The notes under the pieces are model-generated. The model did not search any database. It saw nothing but the letters and a program-made list of their open reading frames with translations, and was not told the DNA's origin. From the NCBI GenBank assembly GCA_905233845.1, contig CAJOFH010000013.1:30531-94530 (forward strand): a stretch of 64,000 bases of DNA, given 5' to 3'. Positions 22,317-39,253 of the stretch are shown here, piece after piece. The position numbers and the translations under genes were made by a program. This DNA comes from an uncultured Muribaculaceae bacterium (lineage in GTDB: Bacteria; Bacteroidota; Bacteroidia; Bacteroidales; Muribaculaceae). Positions within the stretch are counted from its first letter, which is position 1. Every line of letters starts with the position of its first letter.

Positions 22317-22340
22317 TCGTTTTAATTACGAGATTTGTCG

Positions 22341-22348
22341 TATCTTTG
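22341..22348 (+). promoter_or_regulatory. TATCTTTG -7 box, 4 nt before ATG 22353
   Basis: TAnnTTTG match. Confidence 0.55.
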
Positions 22349-22352
22349 CATT

Positions 22353-23441
22353 ATGGAAGAAAACAAGAACCTCATTAAGTCGCAAGATAAACAAGTGTTG
22401 CCCACGCAATTAGTTGACGATGTGAAACTAATTATTGAGCGTGGGTTACGTGAAGCGTACGATAAAGTTAACACAGTTGCCATTCATACGTATTGGCTTA
22501 TTGGCAAGCGCATTGTTGAAGAAGAACAGCATGGCCAGCGCAGAGCTGAATATGGTAGCAGATTAATCACTTCGCTCGCTGATGAACTGTCCTTAGAGTA
22601 TTCCAAAGGTTTTACGGCGAGGGATTTACGCAATTATCGTCAATTGTATCTGTGCTTCAATGATTTAGAGATTTGGTACACGCGTGTACCAAATCTTAAA
22701 TGGTCACACTACCGTACTGTTTTGTCGGTCACAAGTGAAGATGCAAGATACTGGTATATTCGTGAAGCCTCTACAGAATCATGGAGTGTGCGTACTTTGG
22801 CACGCAACGTTGGCTCTCAGTACTATCACCGATTACTGCAATCGCCAAAAAAAGAAGCCGTTGTCAATGAAATGCTGCAACTCACAGCACCATTGAACGA
22901 CGAGCCGCAAGGTTTTCTCAAAGACCCTGTTGTGGCGGAGTTTCTGCAACTCCCGTCAAATGCATCATTCACCGAAACCGAACTTGAGAAAGCCATTATT
23001 CGGCACTTGAAGGAATTTTTGCTTGAAATGGGTCGTGGATTCGCATTCATGGCTGAGCAATACCACATCAACACCGATGCCGGCGATTTCTTTGTAGACT
23101 TGGTTTTCTACAATGTGGTGTTGAAATGCTATGTACTTATCGACCTCAAAACAAAACGAGTGACCCATCAAGATGTCGGGCAAATGGATATGTATGTGCG
23201 AATGTTCGATGACCTAAAGCGTACCGAGGGCGACAACCCAACCATCGGCTTGCTACTTTGTGCCGACACGAGTAAAGACATCGCTCAATACTCTGTGCTT
23301 CACGACAGCAAACAACTCTTTGCCGCAAAATATCTCACTTTCTTGCCGAAGAAGGAAGTGCTTGACCGTGAAATAGAGCAGCAGAAAGAGATATTCTACT
23401 TGCAACACAACAAATCAGCAAAAGAAGATACCGAACAATAA
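22353..23441 (+). CDS. DUF1016/YhcG-type PDDEXK nuclease
   Basis: 'AYGSRLITSLADELSLEYSKGFTARDLRNYRQLY'-like N-domain and 'DLVFYNVVLKCYVLIDLKTKRVTHQDVGQMDMYV' nuclease core. Confidence 0.85.
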   Translation: MEENKNLIKSQDKQVLPTQLVDDVKLIIERGLREAYDKVNTVAIHTYWLIGKRIVEEEQHGQRRAEYGSRLITSLADELSLEYSKGFTARDLRNYRQLYLCFNDLEIWYTRVPNLKWSHYRTVLSVTSEDARYWYIREASTESWSVRTLARNVGSQYYHRLLQSPKKEAVVNEMLQLTAPLNDEPQGFLKDPVVAEFLQLPSNASFTETELEKAIIRHLKEFLLEMGRGFAFMAEQYHINTDAGDFFVDLVFYNVVLKCYVLIDLKTKRVTHQDVGQMDMYVRMFDDLKRTEGDNPTIGLLLCADTSKDIAQYSVLHDSKQLFAAKYLTFLPKKEVLDREIEQQKEIFYLQHNKSAKEDTEQ

Positions 23442-23486
23442 CATCTATTTTACTTCTTTTTGTCAATAATATAGATTATTCAAAAA

Positions 23487-24326
23487 ATGGTTCGACTGGA
23501 AAACGTATCATTCGGATACAAGAAACATAAATATATACTTCAAGACATCAATCTTCTATTGATGCCGTCTCATGTTTATGGGCTTTTGGGAATGAATGGA
23601 GTTGGCAAATCCACATTATTGTATTTGATTACCAATTTGTTGCGTCCACAACAAGGAACAATCTCATATAAAAATTCCGCCGATGGAAAATGGCAGAATA
23701 AAATTGAAGACTTCTTCTTTGTTCCTGAAGAATTTGATTTGCCAAACATCAGTATTAGAAACTATCTGAAAATAAACGTTCCATTCTACCCAAAGTTCAG
23801 CGAAGATGATTTTTTCCAATATCTCAGCCTTTTTGGTATTGATTGCGACAATAGACTGGGAGAGTTGTCGATGGGGCAAAAGAAAAAATTCTATTTGAGT
23901 TTTGCTCATTCTGCGAATACCGACTTACTTATCCTTGACGAGCCGACTAATGGCTTGGACATAGTAAGCAAGCAGCAATTCCGGGATTTCATTTCCCAAT
24001 CCACGGAGAATAGTGACAAATGTATTATTCTTTCCACTCATCAGATTAATGATGTTGATGTTTTGTTTGACGATGTTGTTATCTTACATGACAAGCATAT
24101 AATTCTTCAAGCTGATTGCGAATCTTTATCACGAAGATTTGTTATTGAGAAAGATGGAGCACAAATAAATGATAGAAACTACTTGGCAGTTCTACAAGAT
24201 GCAAACAGAAATTTCTCATTACGAGCTGCCCAAAGCAACACGAGAATAGATTTGGAGATGTTATATAATATGTTGGTGCACAATCCGAGCATTGCAGAAA
24301 CTATAAATCATGAACTCACAAAATAA
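23487..24326 (+). CDS. ABC transporter ATP-binding protein
   Basis: Walker A 'GMNGVGKST', signature 'LSMGQKKK', Walker B 'LLILDEPTNGLD'. Confidence 0.9.
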   Translation: MVRLENVSFGYKKHKYILQDINLLLMPSHVYGLLGMNGVGKSTLLYLITNLLRPQQGTISYKNSADGKWQNKIEDFFFVPEEFDLPNISIRNYLKINVPFYPKFSEDDFFQYLSLFGIDCDNRLGELSMGQKKKFYLSFAHSANTDLLILDEPTNGLDIVSKQQFRDFISQSTENSDKCIILSTHQINDVDVLFDDVVILHDKHIILQADCESLSRRFVIEKDGAQINDRNYLAVLQDANRNFSLRAAQSNTRIDLEMLYNMLVHNPSIAETINHELTK

Positions 24327-25041
24327 AATCAATCATTTATTTATGGCATTCAGGAAGTTTCTTCATGAAAATGCCAGACGATTGCTGTATTATGCCGCAT
24401 TGATGTTTGCGGCAATGTTGCTTTCGTACTTGATATTTGCAATTATTCCCGTCCTATCGCGACCTCAATCTAATCTTAATTATGCCACTGAGATAATGCA
24501 AATAAGCATTTTCTTGTTGTTTGTATTTGGCTGCTTAAGCGCAAGCATCATGTTTCGGGAGTTAAGAAATCGAAGAACACGAATAGCCTATATATGCTTC
24601 CCGACCACCAAGTTCGAGAAGTATATTATCGAGTGGTTTGTTTATGTTTTGTTATTCCCAGTTATATTTTTGTTGTTATCAGAATTATCGGTAAAACTCC
24701 TTATTGCTATTCTTCACTTCTCTGTGGAATCCACAAAAAGCATGGAGAACATATCGGTTACAAAACAACTCATTGAGTTTACGAAAAGTGAAAATAGTGT
24801 ATTCTTGTTTTTCTTAGCCGTTCAATCATGTTTTGTGATTGGTAGCGCATATTGGCGGAAATTCCCTTTTATTAAAACTTTCTTATGTATAGTGGGCATT
24901 TCTGTTGCTTTGTTCTTCTATGCTCTACATTCCAAGAATCAAGATGTTTTAATCGCATACAACTATGTCTATGTAATCTTCACTCTAATTGCATGGGCAT
25001 TATCATATATTGTTTTTCGAAAGAACGCAACATTAGTATAA
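24310..25041 (+). CDS. ABC transporter permease-like membrane protein
   Basis: Six hydrophobic segments; overlaps ATPase gene. Confidence 0.7.
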   Translation: MNSQNKINHLFMAFRKFLHENARRLLYYAALMFAAMLLSYLIFAIIPVLSRPQSNLNYATEIMQISIFLLFVFGCLSASIMFRELRNRRTRIAYICFPTTKFEKYIIEWFVYVLLFPVIFLLLSELSVKLLIAILHFSVESTKSMENISVTKQLIEFTKSENSVFLFFLAVQSCFVIGSAYWRKFPFIKTFLCIVGISVALFFYALHSKNQDVLIAYNYVYVIFTLIAWALSYIVFRKNATLV

Positions 25042-26783: not shown

Positions 26784-27272
26784 ATGGATTTTTTCGTAGA
26801 AACGCTCAAAAACGCATCACTCCACATCCATGCCGTGTGGCTTGCCATCGCATACGTTGCCGTGATACTGGCAATGGCCGTCGATTTCATCGCCGGACTG
26901 CGAAAGGCGAAAATCGCTGGCAAGGTCACAACAAGCAGGGCATTGAAAATGACCACAGAGAAAGCAACCAAGTACTTTCTCCCTATGTTGTGCCTCTCCT
27001 GCATTGACGTTCTGACTTCCGTTGTCCTGCCAGCACCGTTCTTCACGCTGCTCATGGGCGCGTTCAACATCTTCTGCGAATGGAAGTCGGTGCTTGAAAG
27101 CACCCACGACAAGCAGGAGTTGCGCGAAGCAGCCAACACCTTCAACGTCATTGTCAAGAACAAGGACGACATCGCAGGTATCATTATGCAAGCGATGGAG
27201 ATGATGGAGAAGAAACAAGCCATCGAGAGTAATAACAAAAATATCAACCCCCAAACAACAGAAGAAACATGA
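26784..27272 (+). CDS. phage holin-like membrane protein
   Basis: 'VDFIAGLRKAKIAGKVTTSRALKMTTEKATKYFLPML' typical of toxin-secretion/lysis holins. Confidence 0.7.
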   Translation: MDFFVETLKNASLHIHAVWLAIAYVAVILAMAVDFIAGLRKAKIAGKVTTSRALKMTTEKATKYFLPMLCLSCIDVLTSVVLPAPFFTLLMGAFNIFCEWKSVLESTHDKQELREAANTFNVIVKNKDDIAGIIMQAMEMMEKKQAIESNNKNINPQTTEET

Positions 27273-27721
27273 AAAAGAAAGTCATGAACATCAGACCGCA
27301 GGAAGTCACCCAGGGCGGCGAGCGGTCAGTCCAGTACAAAGGCAGCGACGGCAAGATGCACGGCATCGCACCCGCTGGCAACGGCGGTGGCACCGCCCAA
27401 TCAAACATCGTGCTTGAAGTCAATTTTGCCGACGACGGCAAAGCGTTCACCGAAAGTGAACTGATTGACTATCTCACACAGTTCATGAACGGCAAGTGCA
27501 TTATTTGCATTTCCGACAACAACTGGGGCACGCAGAATGAGCGTCGCGTCGCTCTCGTCACCCGTGCCAAAGGCTTCGAGGTCGTTGACGGAAGCATCGT
27601 CATCGGCAACTCGCTGACTTTCGAGCTTGCAAGCCCATCGGCTTTCGGCGACCTCGACGAAGTTATGTTCCTCAAACAGCAAGACGGCAGCTTTGAATTG
27701 TCCCACTATTTCAACAAGTAA
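27269..27721 (+). CDS. modular phage protein, paralog 1
   Basis: N-terminal ~45 aa nearly identical to next gene; C-terminus unrelated. Confidence 0.6.
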   Translation: MKKKVMNIRPQEVTQGGERSVQYKGSDGKMHGIAPAGNGGGTAQSNIVLEVNFADDGKAFTESELIDYLTQFMNGKCIICISDNNWGTQNERRVALVTRAKGFEVVDGSIVIGNSLTFELASPSAFGDLDEVMFLKQQDGSFELSHYFNK

Positions 27722-27724
27722 GCT

Positions 27725-28312
27725 ATGAAAAAGAAAGTCATGAACATCAGACCGCAGGAAGTCACCCAGGGCGGCGAGCGGTCAGTCCAGTACAAGGGCA
27801 GCGACGGCAAGATGCACGGCATCGCGCCAGCTGGCAATGGTGGCAGCACCGCCCAATCGCAAGACGTGCATCTTAAAGATGCCTTCGTCATCTACCGAAA
27901 TAATATGGATCTTTTTGGTCAGGGCGAGCGGACGGTCATCTACAAGATGAACGACTGGGTAAGAACGGAAGTCGATGTCGACACGCTCATGCAAGCACTG
28001 GAGCAGAACGCATCGCAACCAGTCCTTATTCAATTAGAGTCAATGGAAGAAGGCTTCAATGTGGTGGCAAGAGTAATCAGTCTTGCATTGAGCCAAAACG
28101 AGGAAGATGAATCTTATTCGCCTTCGGTGATTTGTCTCCAATGGTGGGCTTACGAGGGTAATGTCGTGGATATTTTCAATGTTGTCCTCGAAAAAAATGA
28201 GCAAGGCTCCACCATTGAGTTTATCCCACAGGCCTTTGCAATAGGTAACGATGATTCAGGAAATGGTCAAATCGCTAACGGTCCAGAAATTGGAGGCAAT
28301 GGAAAGTTATAA
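27725..28312 (+). CDS. modular phage protein, paralog 2
   Basis: As above. Confidence 0.6.
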   Translation: MKKKVMNIRPQEVTQGGERSVQYKGSDGKMHGIAPAGNGGSTAQSQDVHLKDAFVIYRNNMDLFGQGERTVIYKMNDWVRTEVDVDTLMQALEQNASQPVLIQLESMEEGFNVVARVISLALSQNEEDESYSPSVICLQWWAYEGNVVDIFNVVLEKNEQGSTIEFIPQAFAIGNDDSGNGQIANGPEIGGNGKL

Positions 28313-28916
28313 GAACAGAGTAGTCATCCTCGGCACGGCGCACGGCTGCAACGTGCCGGGAAAATGCTCGCCCGACAAGAAGTTCCGCGAGTATCGATTC
28401 AGCCGTGATGTTATCAAGCAGCTGAAGCCCCAACTCGAAGCGCTCGGCTTGCTCGTCTTTGTCGATATGCCAGGCGACGAGGTGCCACGCCCGGGCAACA
28501 CCGAACTTTCGCTCCGTTGCCGTTACGTCAATGGAATATGCTCAAAGTTCGGCACGCAGAACTGCGTCTATGTGAGTATTCACGTCAATGCCGCAGGTTC
28601 TGACGGGCAGTGGCACACAGCACGAGGCTTCGCAGTCTATGTGGCACGCCAATGCTCAGAGGCGAGCAAGCGGCTCGCAAAATCCTTTTGCGAAACCGCT
28701 ATCGCCATGGGATTGCGCGGTAACCGCTCCATCCCCAAAGAGCATTACTGGCAAGCCAATTTCTACGTTGTAAAGAACACCGCTTGCCCTGCGGTGCTGA
28801 CCGAGAACTTGTTCCAAGACAACCACGACGACGTGGATTTTCTCGCATCACCAGAGGGCAAGGCGAAGATTGTCGAACTCCACCGCACCTGCATCGCTAA
28901 ACATTTTGGACTATGA
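28299..28916 (+). CDS. N-acetylmuramoyl-L-alanine amidase (amidase_3 type)
   Basis: 'VVILGTAHGCNVPG', 'VYVSIHVNAAGSDGQWHTARGF', 'AVLTENLFQDN'. Confidence 0.8.
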   Translation: MESYKNRVVILGTAHGCNVPGKCSPDKKFREYRFSRDVIKQLKPQLEALGLLVFVDMPGDEVPRPGNTELSLRCRYVNGICSKFGTQNCVYVSIHVNAAGSDGQWHTARGFAVYVARQCSEASKRLAKSFCETAIAMGLRGNRSIPKEHYWQANFYVVKNTACPAVLTENLFQDNHDDVDFLASPEGKAKIVELHRTCIAKHFGL

Positions 28917-29464
28917 AAGCACTCTCACTCGCTGCAACCACGGCAATGCTTGCTGTGGTATTGCTCGCGTCGTGCCACTCCAAAAAGGAAGTCACGGCTA
29001 CCACGAAAGAGCAGTACGACATCGAGACGGCTGGCTCAACTCTCACTGCAACCGACGAGCGGTTGCAGTGGTTGAGCCGCTTATCGCTCGACATCGACAG
29101 CTTCGAGGTGGTGATACCCACACGCCATTTTGCTGAAATCGGCAAGATGGCTGGTGACACGGCGATGGATCTGCCTGAACAGTTTGCCCTCTCCGCAAGC
29201 CAACCTCGCCCTGGCTCGGTTGTCCTGCGAGGCAAACACGCACGATTGGGCAAGGCCGACATCGTTCAGCGCAACGCTGCGCGTTGCACTTCACAGGTTG
29301 ACACACTGTCGGCTCACCGCTCAATCGACAAGGCAGACCATTACGCTCGTGACAACGTGGGTATATACAAGCCACCCGATGTGACGTGGTGGCCGTGGCT
29401 CCTGCTCACAGGTCTGCTCGTGGGTTCCATTATCATCATTTGGCTGAAAGAAAGAGGTAAATAG
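28913..29464 (+). CDS. lysis-associated lipoprotein (spanin-like)
   Basis: Lipobox 'LLASC', C-terminal TM, downstream of amidase. Confidence 0.5.
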   Translation: MKALSLAATTAMLAVVLLASCHSKKEVTATTKEQYDIETAGSTLTATDERLQWLSRLSLDIDSFEVVIPTRHFAEIGKMAGDTAMDLPEQFALSASQPRPGSVVLRGKHARLGKADIVQRNAARCTSQVDTLSAHRSIDKADHYARDNVGIYKPPDVTWWPWLLLTGLLVGSIIIIWLKERGK

Positions 29465-29503
29465 TTTTTTCATGATGATTTTTGAGTTTAATATGTTCAT
29501 TCA

Positions 29504-30445
29504 AGTAAAGGCTTTGCCGTGAGGCACGGCCTTTACTGCTTCAAGGTGTAAACACATAGCGACCGACCCCACACACCCGCCCTTGACACAATGCAAGCAT
29601 TGCCAAATTGCCCACCCCAGCCCCCGATGTGGGCGGCGTTCCGGACTGGCTCGGCATGGCGGCGATGAGCTTTACGTTGCGGACACCGGCTAACGGCTCA
29701 CAACATCAATCGGGTATCGAGGCGGCAAGCCGTTTCGACACCCGATTTCGCCACCGCCAAACCCACGCACTCGGCTCTTATCGGTCGCTACCATTGCGCA
29801 CCGCGTCTCATTCCGACATCGAAAGTGCCACGCCTACGGCTTATATGCCTCTCTATTGACGGCGTTACGGAAGCGCATCAAGTCTGCCTCGTTACATCGG
29901 GTATCGGTGCGCCAAGTCGCACTGACACCCGATGATTTTCCACTATGTCAGACACAATGCTCGACAGGTCGTTCCGTAACGCCTATGGTTCGGCAAGGGC
30001 ACACTCAATGCTCCAATCGTCTTGTGCTCCATTACCGCTCCCTGCAAGCCCAGTGCTCTCGCTGCGCTCGGGGATTGTCGGTGGGGTGAGCCTATCCGAA
30101 GTCCTTCACTATGCTCGTCGCACGCAATGCTTCTCACCGCCCAATGAACACTCGCCCACATCGCCTAATCACAAAATCAAGGCGCAAGCGAGTTGAGCCA
30201 CGATTTTGATTTAACGATTTTCGGCAATCCGAAAATCTCGAACAGCGGAAGCCAAAGTGTGCCGCCGAAACCAAAACTGCGTTTCGGTTCATCGGCTCAC
30301 ATTGGCGCTCTGACCGCACATTCAGCTCGGTCGAAAAGGCAATTTGCGAAAGCGAGGAAGAGGGTGGTCGGGGGGTCTTTGCAGACAGCAACGGGGCGCA
30401 GCCCCGTACCCCAGAAAAGGCTGTTACACAGCCTTTTAATTTTTT
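29504..30445 (+). ncRNA. candidate large structured non-coding RNA (~940 nt)
   Basis: No convincing ORF; many strong hairpins and long-range helices; ends in terminator 30415-30445. Confidence 0.7.
30415..30445 (+). terminator. rho-independent terminator
   Basis: AAAAGGCTGT-tac-ACAGCCTTTT-aa-TTTTTT. Confidence 0.85.
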
Positions 30446-30626
30446 CAATCCTTAACAAATCGTGTGTTTCCGTAAATCGAGGCTGAAAATACGCAGAAAT
30501 ATCGACTGATTTTCAGTCATTTACACACTTTGTTGTTTTGCACTTTCTTGCACAATGTTGCACATCGGCAAAGTTCCTGCAAAGGATTGAAAATTTCGCT
30601 CGCCAATAGGCGAGGTCGGCAATGTC

Positions 30627-30669
30627 TTTTATAGGTCGGAACGACAAAATTACTTTTGTGCCTATAAAA
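30627..30669 (+). promoter_or_regulatory. tape-measure promoter within 9-bp inverted repeat
   Basis: TTTT-N20-TACTTTTG; TTTTATAGG / CCTATAAAA arms flank it. Confidence 0.6.
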
Positions 30670-30685
30670 TCCATAATCTACTACA

Positions 30686-33600
30686 ATGAGCAACATAAAC
30701 AGTCAAGCAACGGTCAATCTGACCGTGAACGGTCAGCAACCCCTCCAAGTCCTGCAAATGCTGAAGCAGCGTGCAATGGAGTTGGAGAATGCCATCGCTA
30801 AAGCGGCTATGGCAGGGAACAAAGTGGAGCTGCGCAAACTCCGCAGGGAGTTGAGCGACACCAAGCGGCAAATGCGTGAGATTGAAACCTCAACCCAGCA
30901 GGTCGAGCGAGTAATGCTGCGCCTCGACCGAGCCACGCCCAAAGAGTTGAACAAGACCTTACAGACCTTGAACCGACAACTCGAATACATGGAACGTGGC
31001 TCTGCCGCATGGAACTCCCACGTGGCTAAAATCCAGCGTGTGAAAGCCGAACTCGCAAAGGTCAATGCCGAACTCCGCACGCAGGAGTCGTTCTGGACCC
31101 GCTTCAATCGTAAACTCAACGATTGGCAGACATCGCTCATGGGCATCGCAGCTTTGGTCACCGGCCTTGTCATGGCAGGGCGCAAGGCGGTGAACTCCTA
31201 CGCCGAGATGGAAGAAGAAATCGCCAACACCATCAAGTACACCGGCATGGCTCGTGACGAGGTGGTGGCGATGAATGATTCATTCAAGGCAATGGACACC
31301 CGAACAGGGCGAGACAAGCTCAACGAACTGGCGCAGGAAGCAGGACGCTTGGGCAAGAACACCAGGGAAAGTGTTCAAGGCTATGTCGAGGCAGCCGACA
31401 TCATCAACGTGGCGTTGGTGGACTTGGGCGAGGGAGCGACCCAAGTCATCGCCAAGCTCACCAACATCTTCGGTGTCGAGCAGATACTCGGTACCAAAGA
31501 CGCAATGCTCGCTGTCGGCTCGACGGTGAATGTCCTCTCGCAGAACTGTACCGCGGCGAAACCCTACCTTGTGCAGTTCGCCCAACGCATGGCTGGTGTG
31601 GGCGCACAGGCGAGAATGACAATCCCCGAAATACTCGCCTTCGCGGCCACCCTTGACGCTAACGGTCAAAAGGTAGAGATGTCGGCTTCGGCGATGTCGC
31701 GCCTTATTATGATGTTGTTTCAAAAGCCGCAGGAGATAGCAAAGACTGTCGGGCTTGACGTGGAGAAGTTCACCGAGACGCTGAACCGCAGCACCAACGA
31801 GGGCGTGCTGATGTTCCTCGGCAAATTGCAGGAGATCGGTGAGGCTGACGCACTTGCCGCACTCTCGCCCTTGTTCAAGGACTTGGGCATGGACGGCATC
31901 CGCATGGCCCAGGTCCTCGCCACGCTCGCCACCCACCTCGACATGGTGAAGTGGGAGCAGAAAGAGGCGAACAAGGCATTTACCGAAGCCACGTCTGCGA
32001 CCCGCGAATACAACATCTTCAACAACACTGCCCAAGCAGGTATCGACAAGGCACGCAAGCACATCCACGAGCTCGCCATTGAGTTAGGAGAGAAACTCCT
32101 GCCTCTATACAAGCATATAATGACGAGCGGAAGCGCCATGCTGCGATTCCTGAATGTGCTGGTGAATTTCTTTGTCCAGTACAAGGGATTGATCGTGACC
32201 TTCACGGCATCATGGATTGCCTACAAGGTAGCGGTCAACGCCAGCAACATCGCTTTCAAGGCTCATTACTACTGGCTCGTCATCACCGAGGGAGCGCAGA
32301 AGTTGCTCGGAACGGCAACGCTGGCTCTCAAAATCGCCTTCTACGCTCTCACGGGGCAGGTCGAGAAGGCAAAGGCAGCTTACACCGCTTTCCACCTTCT
32401 CACCAAGACCACGCCGTGGGGCATCATCCTCGCGGCTGTCACCGCATTGGGAGTGGGCATTTATAATCTCTGCACACGCACCGACGAGCTGACGAAGAAG
32501 ACCAACGAGGCCGTCAAGGCAGCCAAAGGCTACAATGCCGAAGCCGTGAAAGAGCAGCACGAACTGGACGTGCTTTTCGGCAAGCTCAAAGGTGCCGAGA
32601 AAGGCACGAAAGAGTATGAGGACGCGAAACGCGCCATCATCAACCAGTACGGCAAGTACCTCTCCGGTCTCATCAACGAGAAAGGCGAAATCCTCAATCT
32701 CGAAGCCGCCTACAACCGCTTGACTTTGGCGGTGAGGCGGTCAGCCCAAGAGCGAGGCATCGCCGCGGCACGTGAGCAGATTGACCAGGAATATTACAAG
32801 TCGCTCGCTTCGGGCTTGACAGACCTGCAAGCCTCGCTCGAAAGTGCCGGAGCGACCACAAGGGACGCAGCCGAGATTGTCGCAGCCGTCAGTTCAGCGA
32901 TGGCGGCTGGCAAGCCCATACCGCAGAACTACATCAATAAAATCAACGGCTACTCCAAAGGTATTGAGTGGCGGTTGCTGCCCGACTGGGTGGGCGGCAG
33001 CCAGCACCCCTTCTGGGGCGGCGACAGCCGAAAGCCGGCTCCCATCGTCAACCGTATGTATAATGCATACGAGACCCACCGCAAAGGGCTTGCGGCTCTT
33101 GACGCTATGGAAGACGGCGTTTCCCCATTGAGGCACATAGACAACTATTACCTCAAAGGCACCATCGGGCAGCTGGAGAAGATAGTGAAGAACAATCAGG
33201 CGGGCAACGCCATCGTGTTCATCGAGGGCACGCAGCAGGGCGAGTACAAGGAAGTCTCGGTTGCCGAAGCCAAGCAGCTCCTCACACAGTACCGTGAGGA
33301 ACTTGCCTACCGTGGCGCCAGCAAGACCGATGCCACTGGCTTGAACCTCGACACCACTGGCGGCACCGGCGGTGCGGCTGGCGGCGTGGGCGGCGCATCG
33401 CCCAAGACCACCAAAGGCGGCGGTCGTGGCGGCTCGCAGAAGTCCGAGGACAAGTTCAAGGCGGAGAAAGACTGGCGAGAGTACCAGGAAGCCTTGAACC
33501 GCATCGCCTATGCAACAGGGGAAAAGAACTATGAGGAATACACCAACAGAATGTTGGAAATCGAGGAAGCGTTCTACCGCAAGCAACTGGCTCACGCAGA

Positions 33601-35488
33601 TCTCACGGCTAACGAACGCATCTCGATAGAGGCACAGCTGTATGAAGTCCTGCGCAAGCAGACCGAGACCGCCAACAAGAAGACCATCGAGGATGAGAAT
33701 CGGCTGTATGCGCTCCGAAAGTCGGAGACGCAGCAGCAGTACATCGACGGCTTGTTGTCGACCGAGGCATACAACGAGCAGATGCAGCGCATCGAGCTTG
33801 AACACCTCAAAGCCATCAAGGACATCTACAGTGACCAGGCGTTCGCGCCCATCACCGAGTGGGAGGAAACCAAGCGGCAAGCAGCCGAGATGATGCAGAC
33901 GCAGTTCAACGGCAACGTCGACCTGCTCAACAGACCCGTCATTGACGCTCACGAGCTGACAAAGGCGGGCTGGAAAGGCAATCCGCAAAACGAGGGAGAG
34001 GCCACCGCGACGGTGTACTCATCCCAGTACGGCATCAAGGACTCCACAGGACAAGTCCGTGAAATCCTTGTCACGCCCATCTTACCCGACGGCTCAGTCC
34101 TTACAGAGAAAGAACTGAAAGATTACGTCTACAAGACGCTGCAGGGTGCAGAGGACATTCTCGAAGCCGATGACAAAGGATTGGTCATCGCCGTGGACGT
34201 AAGCGCAGACGGCAAGGCTGGCGAGAATCTGCACACCATGCAGGAAGCCTACAATTCGTCAAAGCCGAATGTAGATGAAAAGGCATGGGCTAACTTCCTC
34301 GCTGCCGAAGAAGCCTATCAGAACAAACTGATTGCCGAGCAGCAGAAGAAGCAGCGTGAGGCAGAGGAAGCCGAGCAGAAGCACCAGGCTGAACTCAAAC
34401 GCATCAAGGACGAGTATTTCGGCAACAACGCAGCCGAAAACAAGGCTCTCTACGACGAAGCCATCTCGAACCTTGATAAAGTGTACCAAGCCGAGGTAGC
34501 GGCAGCTGGCGACAATGCGAAGGAGAAACTTCGCATTGACGAGGCTTATGAGAAAGCCAAGCTCGCCTTGAAGAAGAAGTACAATCAGATGGGCGGCGAG
34601 GAAGACCGCAACGCCATGCAGAAGTGGAACCAGGATCTGCTCGACTGGCTCAATGGCGACGGCGGACAGGCCGTCACCAAGAGCGTCGAAACATTGACAT
34701 CGGGAATGTCAAGTATCTTCTCGCAGCTCTCCTCACTTGTGCAAGCCGAGATGGAGATTGAAACCGCTGCCGTGGAGAAACGCTACGAGCGTGAGGTGTC
34801 TATGGCAGAGGGCAACAAATACAAGACCAAGCAGCTTGAAAAGCAGAAGCAGAAAGAGATTGCAAAGGTCAAGGACGAGGCAAATAGGAAACTGTTCGCC
34901 ATGCAGGTAATCCAAGCCGTGGCGCAGACGGCAACGGCTGCGCTCAACGCCTACTCATCGGCTGCCGCTATTCCTGTGGTGGGCTACATACTCGCGCCTA
35001 TCGCCGCAGCGATGGCTATTGCCGCTGGCGCAATACAGATTGCGACCATCAAGAAGCAACAGCAAGCCAGCACCGCGCAGGGCTATGCCCGGGGCGGTTT
35101 CACCAAGCAGGGCGCAGTCGATGAGGTAGCTGGTGTCGTTCACGCAGGAGAGTGGGTGGCAAGTCAGAAGCTCCTTGCCTCACCGGTGGCTCGCCCACTC
35201 ATCGAGGCCCTGGACTATGCGCAGCGGACAAACACAATCGGCAGTTTGAGACAGTCCGATGTGAGCCGCACGATTACTGCTCCCGCAGTATTGGCGCAGT
35301 CCCAAGCCCCGACAGTCATTGTTCAAGAGAACAAAACTCTGCGTGAAACGCTCGCTCGCTTGAATGAAAGGCTAAATGAGCCTTTCGTCACCGTGAACAC
35401 CGTGACTGGTGATCTCGGTATCAAGCAAGCGCAAGATGATTACCAGCGATTGATGAACAATAAATCCCCGAAGAATAAACGCAAGTAA
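30686..35488 (+). CDS. phage tail tape measure protein
   Basis: 1600 aa, coiled coils, 'MEEEIANTIKYTGMARDEVVAMNDSFKAMDTRTGRDKLNELAQEAGRLG' typical TMP core. Confidence 0.9.
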   Translation: MSNINSQATVNLTVNGQQPLQVLQMLKQRAMELENAIAKAAMAGNKVELRKLRRELSDTKRQMREIETSTQQVERVMLRLDRATPKELNKTLQTLNRQLEYMERGSAAWNSHVAKIQRVKAELAKVNAELRTQESFWTRFNRKLNDWQTSLMGIAALVTGLVMAGRKAVNSYAEMEEEIANTIKYTGMARDEVVAMNDSFKAMDTRTGRDKLNELAQEAGRLGKNTRESVQGYVEAADIINVALVDLGEGATQVIAKLTNIFGVEQILGTKDAMLAVGSTVNVLSQNCTAAKPYLVQFAQRMAGVGAQARMTIPEILAFAATLDANGQKVEMSASAMSRLIMMLFQKPQEIAKTVGLDVEKFTETLNRSTNEGVLMFLGKLQEIGEADALAALSPLFKDLGMDGIRMAQVLATLATHLDMVKWEQKEANKAFTEATSATREYNIFNNTAQAGIDKARKHIHELAIELGEKLLPLYKHIMTSGSAMLRFLNVLVNFFVQYKGLIVTFTASWIAYKVAVNASNIAFKAHYYWLVITEGAQKLLGTATLALKIAFYALTGQVEKAKAAYTAFHLLTKTTPWGIILAAVTALGVGIYNLCTRTDELTKKTNEAVKAAKGYNAEAVKEQHELDVLFGKLKGAEKGTKEYEDAKRAIINQYGKYLSGLINEKGEILNLEAAYNRLTLAVRRSAQERGIAAAREQIDQEYYKSLASGLTDLQASLESAGATTRDAAEIVAAVSSAMAAGKPIPQNYINKINGYSKGIEWRLLPDWVGGSQHPFWGGDSRKPAPIVNRMYNAYETHRKGLAALDAMEDGVSPLRHIDNYYLKGTIGQLEKIVKNNQAGNAIVFIEGTQQGEYKEVSVAEAKQLLTQYREELAYRGASKTDATGLNLDTTGGTGGAAGGVGGASPKTTKGGGRGGSQKSEDKFKAEKDWREYQEALNRIAYATGEKNYEEYTNRMLEIEEAFYRKQLAHADLTANERISIEAQLYEVLRKQTETANKKTIEDENRLYALRKSETQQQYIDGLLSTEAYNEQMQRIELEHLKAIKDIYSDQAFAPITEWEETKRQAAEMMQTQFNGNVDLLNRPVIDAHELTKAGWKGNPQNEGEATATVYSSQYGIKDSTGQVREILVTPILPDGSVLTEKELKDYVYKTLQGAEDILEADDKGLVIAVDVSADGKAGENLHTMQEAYNSSKPNVDEKAWANFLAAEEAYQNKLIAEQQKKQREAEEAEQKHQAELKRIKDEYFGNNAAENKALYDEAISNLDKVYQAEVAAAGDNAKEKLRIDEAYEKAKLALKKKYNQMGGEEDRNAMQKWNQDLLDWLNGDGGQAVTKSVETLTSGMSSIFSQLSSLVQAEMEIETAAVEKRYEREVSMAEGNKYKTKQLEKQKQKEIAKVKDEANRKLFAMQVIQAVAQTATAALNAYSSAAAIPVVGYILAPIAAAMAIAAGAIQIATIKKQQQASTAQGYARGGFTKQGAVDEVAGVVHAGEWVASQKLLASPVARPLIEALDYAQRTNTIGSLRQSDVSRTITAPAVLAQSQAPTVIVQENKTLRETLARLNERLNEPFVTVNTVTGDLGIKQAQDDYQRLMNNKSPKNKRK

Positions 35489-37724: not shown

Positions 37725-38960
37725 CTATTTCTTGCCATATAGCACCCAGTCAAGCACTTTTCTATTGGCCTCATCGACCTTGCTTTGGTCAAAGTCAATG
37801 TAGATGTCGGTCACTGTGTTGTTGCCGTGTCCGAGAGCATGGGCGATAGTGTCCTTCGGAATGTCAAGAGAAGCGGCGATTGTAGCCCACGAGTGACGCG
37901 CCCAATACGTTGATATTTGGGGAAATAGTGGCTCGTATTCTTTCTTGCCTCCACGCCCTACACGCTTCACTGGACCAATCTTTTTCAAAGCTCGGTTCAT
38001 TCGTTTTGTGTAGTCCTTATAGTCCTTGTATCGGTCAAGAATGTTAAGCAGCCACTTCTCGCCACGGTAGCGATTGATGATTTCCAACGCCTCTGGCTCA
38101 ACCTTTATACTATAAAGGCGGTTAGTCTTTGCTCTGTGAAACTCCACCCGGCCATCCACAATAGCCGTGAGGTTGCAAAGGTCAATCGCATTGATACCCA
38201 GCAGCATAAACATCAGCTTGAACATATCAAGATACTGTTGGGCGTGCTTCTCACAAGGATAGTTGAAAAACTTACGAAGTTCCTCTACTTTGAGGTTTCG
38301 CTTGGCAGTCGCAACATTGCGGATAGAGAAGCGACGGAACGGGTAGAACGTAGTGATTTCATCATCAAGAGCCTCGTTGAAAACGGCTCTGATGTTGCGC
38401 AAATGAATGTTGCGAGCGTTCTTTGAGGGTGATTGAGGGATGAGGTGAGAATCAAACTTCGTCAGCCATTCCTTTGTAATATCCTCGAAAGCAAGCGTTT
38501 CGAGTTTCTTACCTGCGAACTCAACCATACGCTTATATGTGTCCATATAAATGCGTTTGGTACTCGGCTTTTTGCTGTCAGCAAAAGCGAGGTAGCGTCT
38601 GACAAACAAGTTCTTACGCCGTTCCGCTTGTTCTTTAGCCTCGACCTTGCTGGGATTGAGTTTGCGCTCAATCTCTAGTTTAATGTCGTTGGCAGTCATA
38701 CTTTGCAGACTGCCAGCGTCAGCGAGGATAAAGATAGTACGCTCCACCTGCTGCATAATCCCCATCAAATACAGGTTTAGCACCTTTTGCTCTGGGTGGT
38801 TCACCACCATAGACTGCCCGCAGTCCCATTGCGTGGGCAGCAGTCGTGCATCAGTTGAGATGTACGAAGTCTTGTCACGGTGACCGATAGCCACCTTCAA
38901 GACCGACGGAGACCCAGGTTTCGTTCTCCGTGTGTCAAGGAAAAACTTAGTTCTTGCCAT
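37725..38960 (-). CDS. tyrosine recombinase/phage integrase
   Basis: 'YWARHSWATIAASLDIPKDTIAHALGHGNNTVTDIYIDFD'; start MARTKFFLD. Confidence 0.9.
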   Translation of the reverse strand: MARTKFFLDTRRTKPGSPSVLKVAIGHRDKTSYISTDARLLPTQWDCGQSMVVNHPEQKVLNLYLMGIMQQVERTIFILADAGSLQSMTANDIKLEIERKLNPSKVEAKEQAERRKNLFVRRYLAFADSKKPSTKRIYMDTYKRMVEFAGKKLETLAFEDITKEWLTKFDSHLIPQSPSKNARNIHLRNIRAVFNEALDDEITTFYPFRRFSIRNVATAKRNLKVEELRKFFNYPCEKHAQQYLDMFKLMFMLLGINAIDLCNLTAIVDGRVEFHRAKTNRLYSIKVEPEALEIINRYRGEKWLLNILDRYKDYKDYTKRMNRALKKIGPVKRVGRGGKKEYEPLFPQISTYWARHSWATIAASLDIPKDTIAHALGHGNNTVTDIYIDFDQSKVDEANRKVLDWVLYGKK

Positions 38961-39008
38961 ATAAAACCTCCCGCTACTCTCCGCACAACTTTCGTGTCTC
39001 TCAAATCC

Positions 39009-39040
39009 ACCTTGTACGTACAAGGTAATGTACAAGGTAA
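39009..39040. repeat. palindrome plus direct repeat upstream of integrase
   Basis: ACCTTGTAC|GTACAAGGTAAT|GTACAAGGTAA. Confidence 0.8.
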
Positions 39041-39178
39041 ATGGGGCGATATGTTGAGAAATCGTGTAAAATTGTGCAAATTTGGCGTTTTTTTTAATGG
39101 CATTTACCGCCTAAAACGGCAAAAAAGTAAGGTCGGAAATAGGCTTAATCGCCTATTTACCAACCTTTTCCTTTTCAG

Positions 39179-39253
39179 TCGGGATGACTAGATTCGAACT
39201 AGCGACCCCACGCCCCCCAGACGCGTACTCTAACCGGACTGAGCTACATCCCG
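39179..39253 (-). tRNA. tRNA-Pro (anticodon GGG)
   Basis: Cloverleaf read by eye: CGGGATG acceptor, loop CTGGGGG, T-loop TTCGAAT, CATCCCG-A. Confidence 0.9.

Follow-up and report, generated by a model that had tools for sequence, protein, structure and literature searches.

A probable large structured non-coding RNA with two paralogous hairpins between the lysis and tape-measure genes of a Muribaculaceae prophage

GOLLD and ROOL form RNA-only cages, and to our knowledge no function has been established for either of them. GOLLD is expressed more during lysis and is found near tRNA islands; the known hosts of ROOL are mainly Firmicutes. Many members of GOLLD exceed 800 nt, and this phage- or prophage-encoded RNA has a conserved 3' region and a less conserved 5' region (PMC12286853). 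ROOL is a large, ornate phage and prophage RNA of unknown function, of which a member from cow rumen has been studied (PMC12286853). From Bacteroidetes, the palindromic candidate RNA HMP2_4078, 109 bp in length, was described in the vicinity of phage and integrase domains (Fremin and Bhatt 2021, PMC8040213).

Here we describe a region of an uncultured Muribaculaceae bacterium, contained in the window (the whole 64,000-nt stretch of DNA that was analysed), which probably is the gene of a stand-alone, large and highly structured non-coding RNA of Bacteroidales phages and related integrative elements (Table 1). In kind this RNA is like GOLLD and ROOL; because no Rfam model matches, it is a member of neither. 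Like GOLLD it is large and borne by phages and prophages, with tape-measure, endolysin and integrase genes around it and copies in IMG/VR viral contigs, and it combines a 3' module present in 15 of 30 genera of the family with a full 5' domain present in a subset of loci. It differs from GOLLD in being confined to Bacteroidales here and in its recurrent place between lysis genes and the tape-measure gene. In the window it lies outside a tRNA array, although the prophage adjoins a tRNA-Pro gene, and several other loci have tRNA genes nearby; no GOLLD match was obtained at the gathering threshold or at E up to 10, nor in six homologous loci. With ROOL it shares the large size, the ornate structure and the phage or prophage origin, but not an Rfam ROOL match or the genomic place. 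OLE, HEARO and other large bacterial Rfam RNAs are similar in size and complexity; none of them matched at gathering or was listed at E up to 10. HMP2_4078 is likewise palindromic and found in Bacteroidetes in phage and integrase surroundings, but comprises 109 bp only; going by its description, it might be a part of this RNA, with a possible overlap with the hairpin of the 3' module.

Rfam searched at the gathering threshold and with E up to 10 yielded only weak matches far below gathering, six homologous loci had no Rfam match, and phage records had no blastn match to the whole region. The family is undescribed in the literature searched, which took in subscription papers only in small part. 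If Bacteroidales phages have an independent class of their own beside lysis and tail genes, large structured RNAs would seem to be a component that recurs among phages, and gut and rumen bacteria would offer another system for testing their role.

Table 1. Coordinates of the RNA, its structural elements and the neighbouring genes in the window
Feature	Positions	Strand	Description and basis
Lysis region	26784-29464	+	
Holin-like gene	26784-27272	+	
Endolysin gene	28302-28916	+	amidase_3
Small lipoprotein gene	28913-29464	+	
Hairpin after lysis operon	29504-29537	+	AGTAAAGGC/GCCTTTACT; also in L002
Large structured non-coding RNA gene (probable)	29610-30445	+	roughly 840 nt; extent inferred from conservation and terminator
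5' domain	29655-30129	+	475-nt rod bearing both hairpins; consensus fold and covariation
Rod long-range helix	29655-29701/30086-30129	+	
Hairpin 1	29708-29747	+	side arm of rod, GGGU-A-UC/GA-C-ACCC motif; fold z, covariation, helix 7
Rod long-range helix	29750-29776/30047-30085	+	
Rod long-range helix	29814-29829/29998-30012	+	
Rod long-range helix	29846-29872/29972-29995	+	
Rod long-range helix	29875-29892/29942-29960	+	
Hairpin 2	29895-29934	+	terminal arm of rod, motif as in hairpin 1; fold z, covariation, helix 18
3' module	30246-30437	+	long hairpin, CCCU/AGGG stem, G-rich three-way junction, terminal hairpin; 153.3 bits here
Intrinsic terminator	30415-30445	+	AAAAGGCTG-TTACA-CAGCCTTTT with T run; stem covaries (helix 8)
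Promoter-like sequence before tape-measure gene	30620-30660	+	GTCTTTTA...TTACTTTTG, presumably Bacteroidetes-type
Tape-measure protein gene	30686-35488	+	1600 aa, directly downstream of the RNA; PF10145, phrog_25337

The two hairpins and the structure around them

An earlier note on this DNA had placed two paralogous hairpins inside a large RNA. Both were found where the note had located them, in the gap of 29465-30685 between the lysis region and the tape-measure gene. When the flanking base, which also pairs, is counted, each hairpin has an outer stem of 8 bp followed by the same A.C mismatch; above it, hairpin 1 has a 9-bp upper stem with a 4-nt loop and hairpin 2 an 8-bp upper stem with a 6-nt loop. 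In the comparison with shuffled controls that the note had proposed, hairpin 1 folds with -25.2 kcal/mol (z -6.4) and hairpin 2 with -26.0 kcal/mol (z -6.0), far beyond the shuffles, none of which was as good in either case. Among the direct repeats of the region the two hairpins form the top-ranking family, with a length of 38 nt, 79% identity and a spacing of 187. In the source genome the pattern GGGTATC-N6-36-GACACCC has two occurrences, both within this RNA, and its matches elsewhere in the genus, outside the RNA loci, have unrelated interiors by inspection. A dispersed REP-like palindrome was rejected, as the source genome contains two hairpin copies, both here, and one full 3' module. 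Kissing loops between CAAG and CUUG apical loops were also rejected, being inconsistent from species to species.

The compensatory changes between the two paralogs had been taken as direct evidence for selection on RNA structure. Such selection is supported, with the proof coming from true homologs, as two hairpins alone are thin evidence. Among 17 hairpin copies, two of them poor, 88.3% of the cells are paired and 24 cells are changed on both sides, against 8.8 +/- 2.5 after shuffling; slid controls reached at most 46% paired and at most 13 doubly changed cells. The A.C opposition is retained in 16 of the 17 copies. The GGG/CCC core is invariant, hence without information on pairing, and its invariance suggests a constraint on the sequence itself. 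The apex is the weakest part, with four pairs often broken among homologs. Hairpin 2 of a 90%-identical relative (L002) has lost two of five upper pairs with no compensating change, and L035, L036 and L045 have an open loop of 12 nt as their apex. Upper stems mutating without restored pairing, named in the note as contrary evidence, do therefore occur at the apex. The outer stem is kept, as are the lower 4-5 bp above the mismatch, which places the constraint on the lower two thirds of the hairpin and not on its tip.

The 5' domain of eight species is predicted to form a single rod, with hairpin 2 at its tip. Its consensus energy is -294, compared with -194 +/- 6 in column shuffles. Changes on both sides affect 39 pairs and 77 cells, against 27.3 cells in shuffled and 3-11 in slid controls; since this structure was predicted from the same alignment, the percentage of pairing is inflated and the observed counts are somewhat favoured, and the gap is still wide. 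The complete 5' domain is confined to a subset of loci. In other genera, the sequence 5' of the 3' module mostly folds better than shuffles (z -1.3 to -6.4).

The most widely conserved part of the RNA is the 3' module, which is tandemly repeated in some loci. RNAalifold found almost no structure in a gappy alignment of 67 copies, and a hand-built structure with a covariance model was used instead. In 26 diverse copies 151 cells are doubly changed, compared with 72.5 shuffled and 39-61 slid. Covariation in the 5' domain and the 3' module and the consensus fold thus bear out a large RNA around the hairpins; folding of the whole gap, 29465-30460, has a z of -8.8 on the plus strand and of -6.9 on the minus strand.

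A segment of the 5' domain bearing hairpin 2 is present twice in L035, L041, L044, L045 and L065, so the RNA varies by duplication of whole modules.

Distribution and genomic setting

A DNA search delivered homologs in 43 other genomes, all but one within the genus. With the covariance model of the 3' module, matches were obtained in 61 of 101 genomes from the genus, in 45 of 198 from the family (spread over 15 of 30 genera) and in 6 of 394 from the order, of which 4 lie outside the family; among 398 genomes of the phylum the source genome alone matched. The larger of these searches used stricter filters, with which weak matches may be lost. RNA copies were found in IMG/VR viral contigs. The exact hairpin pattern had no occurrence in the viral contigs searched; a looser pattern occurred in 86, of which 80 were run with the covariance model and one (L226) has the RNA.

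An integrase gene (37725-39035) adjoins tRNA-Pro(GGG) (39178-39253), which identifies the element as a prophage. No left attachment repeat of the tRNA-Pro was found within the window, so the left end lies outside the window or is decayed. The hairpin that follows the lysis operon is possibly the operon terminator, though it has no long T run. The sequence before the tape-measure gene is promoter-like, of a putative Bacteroidetes type, and is conserved by eye in L032, L046, L047, L049 and L054.

A tape-measure gene lies directly 3' of the RNA in 13 loci of one locus set and in 10 of another; of the latter, 8 are outside the genus and one (L273) is in another family. Other copies adjoin a tyrosine integrase with tRNA-Pro, a BT4734-type primase or an unnamed protein. 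The next gene is often convergent, namely the integrase in L031, L039 and L070, the primase in L038, L041 and L044, and the unnamed protein of 231-255 aa in L040, L050 and L064. Genes for tRNA-Pro(GGG) or other tRNAs are found near several RNA loci and are absent from many. A role in defence or as cargo, based on copies beside AbiE or GmrSD-like genes, is not preferred, because the tape measure is the commonest and widest context.

The frequent position of a tape-measure gene downstream, in most cases no more than a few hundred nt from the 3' module, would also fit a giant cis-regulatory leader or attenuator of the tape-measure and tail genes. Such a leader should always lie upstream of and co-directional with the gene, with no terminator between. 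Instead the RNA is closed by an intrinsic terminator, the promoter-like sequence is conserved between that terminator and the tape-measure gene, and tandem 3' modules occur also at a chromosomal site. The convergent next gene in some loci likewise means that the RNA is not simply a leader. We consider this explanation unlikely and prefer an RNA with a gene of its own.

DNA element, strand and coding potential

The two hairpins can form on either strand, integrases and tRNA genes are close to some copies, and in the 3' module the first hairpin is similar to its own reverse complement, as might be expected of a DNA element such as a cruciform, an origin, or a recombination or packaging site. Nested helices with compensatory changes over 475 nt, an excess of G-U over A-C intermediates on one strand and the terminator at one end make this reading distinctly improbable, and argue for an RNA.

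Where the G-U to A-C counts can decide, they favour the plus strand, on which the first consensus stems show 74 to 2, the CCC/GGG stem 46 to 0, the junction stem 39 to 2 and the hairpins, with the constant A.C set aside, 18 to 2. These counts place the 3' module and the hairpins on the plus strand. In the fitted alignment of 86 copies the difference, taken over every pair, is small (7.5% G-U versus 6.7% A-C), and for the 5' domain alone the strands are nearly equal in energy (-294 and -290) and are not separated by these counts. Transcription from the minus strand would turn the invariant A.C into a G.U pair and gives the lower absolute folding energy (-427 versus -384). Its z is the poorer one, however, the counts in the 3' module and the hairpins favour the plus strand and the terminator at the gene end is on the plus strand, which leaves the minus strand only a slim chance.

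The region is not coding. Substitutions between the window and the 90%-identical relative are even over the codon phases (71/75/65), as they are over eight sequences, in which 379 of 398 indels (95%) are not multiples of three; nearly every frame contains stops, and open reading frames of the homologs had no Pfam or PHROGs match at the usual threshold. Some homologs do have open reading frames of 175-340 aa that share sequence, but even phases, frame-breaking indels and missing family matches render a decayed or frameshifted protein gene scarcely credible.

Possible role

The stand-alone RNA would be transcribed as an independent unit in the late region of the prophage; its location next to lysis and tail genes suggests late expression. 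In the manner of GOLLD and ROOL, it may act as a structural or trans-acting molecule. The GGGU-A-UC/GA-C-ACCC stem of both hairpins is almost invariant, beyond what pairing requires, and such a repeated stem is most simply read as two docking sites. Hairpins 1 and 2 may thus be two copies of one putative docking site, whose partner could be a protein or, through RNA-RNA contact, another part of the molecule or a second molecule. The widely conserved core is the 3' module. In a more tentative proposal, for which we claim less than even chances, the RNA represents an undescribed class of ornate Bacteroidales-phage RNAs of about 840 nt with duplicable modules and two identical docking hairpins, which would assemble with itself or with phage proteins at the late lytic stage.

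Further observations concern the surroundings. At 22335-25041 of the window, inside the prophage, a YhcG/DUF1016 nuclease (candidate defence family PDC-S02) is encoded ahead of an ABC-type ATPase and a membrane protein; this set is likely cargo. In L031 (4268-5708) an AbiEi/AbiEii type IV toxin-antitoxin pair lies directly upstream of the RNA, with an integrase and tRNA-Pro downstream. The adjacent genes 27269-27721 and 27725-28312 of the window encode proteins with near-identical N-terminal 40 residues (MKKKVMNIRPQEVTQGGERSVQYKGSDGKMHGIAPAGNGG) that diverge thereafter and have no Pfam match. Three to four tandem 3' modules occur on the chromosome of several species (L051-L063, e.g. L060:3874-5430), at a site that adjoins tRNA-Ala(GGC) and a gene which by eye reads as rny (RNase Y).
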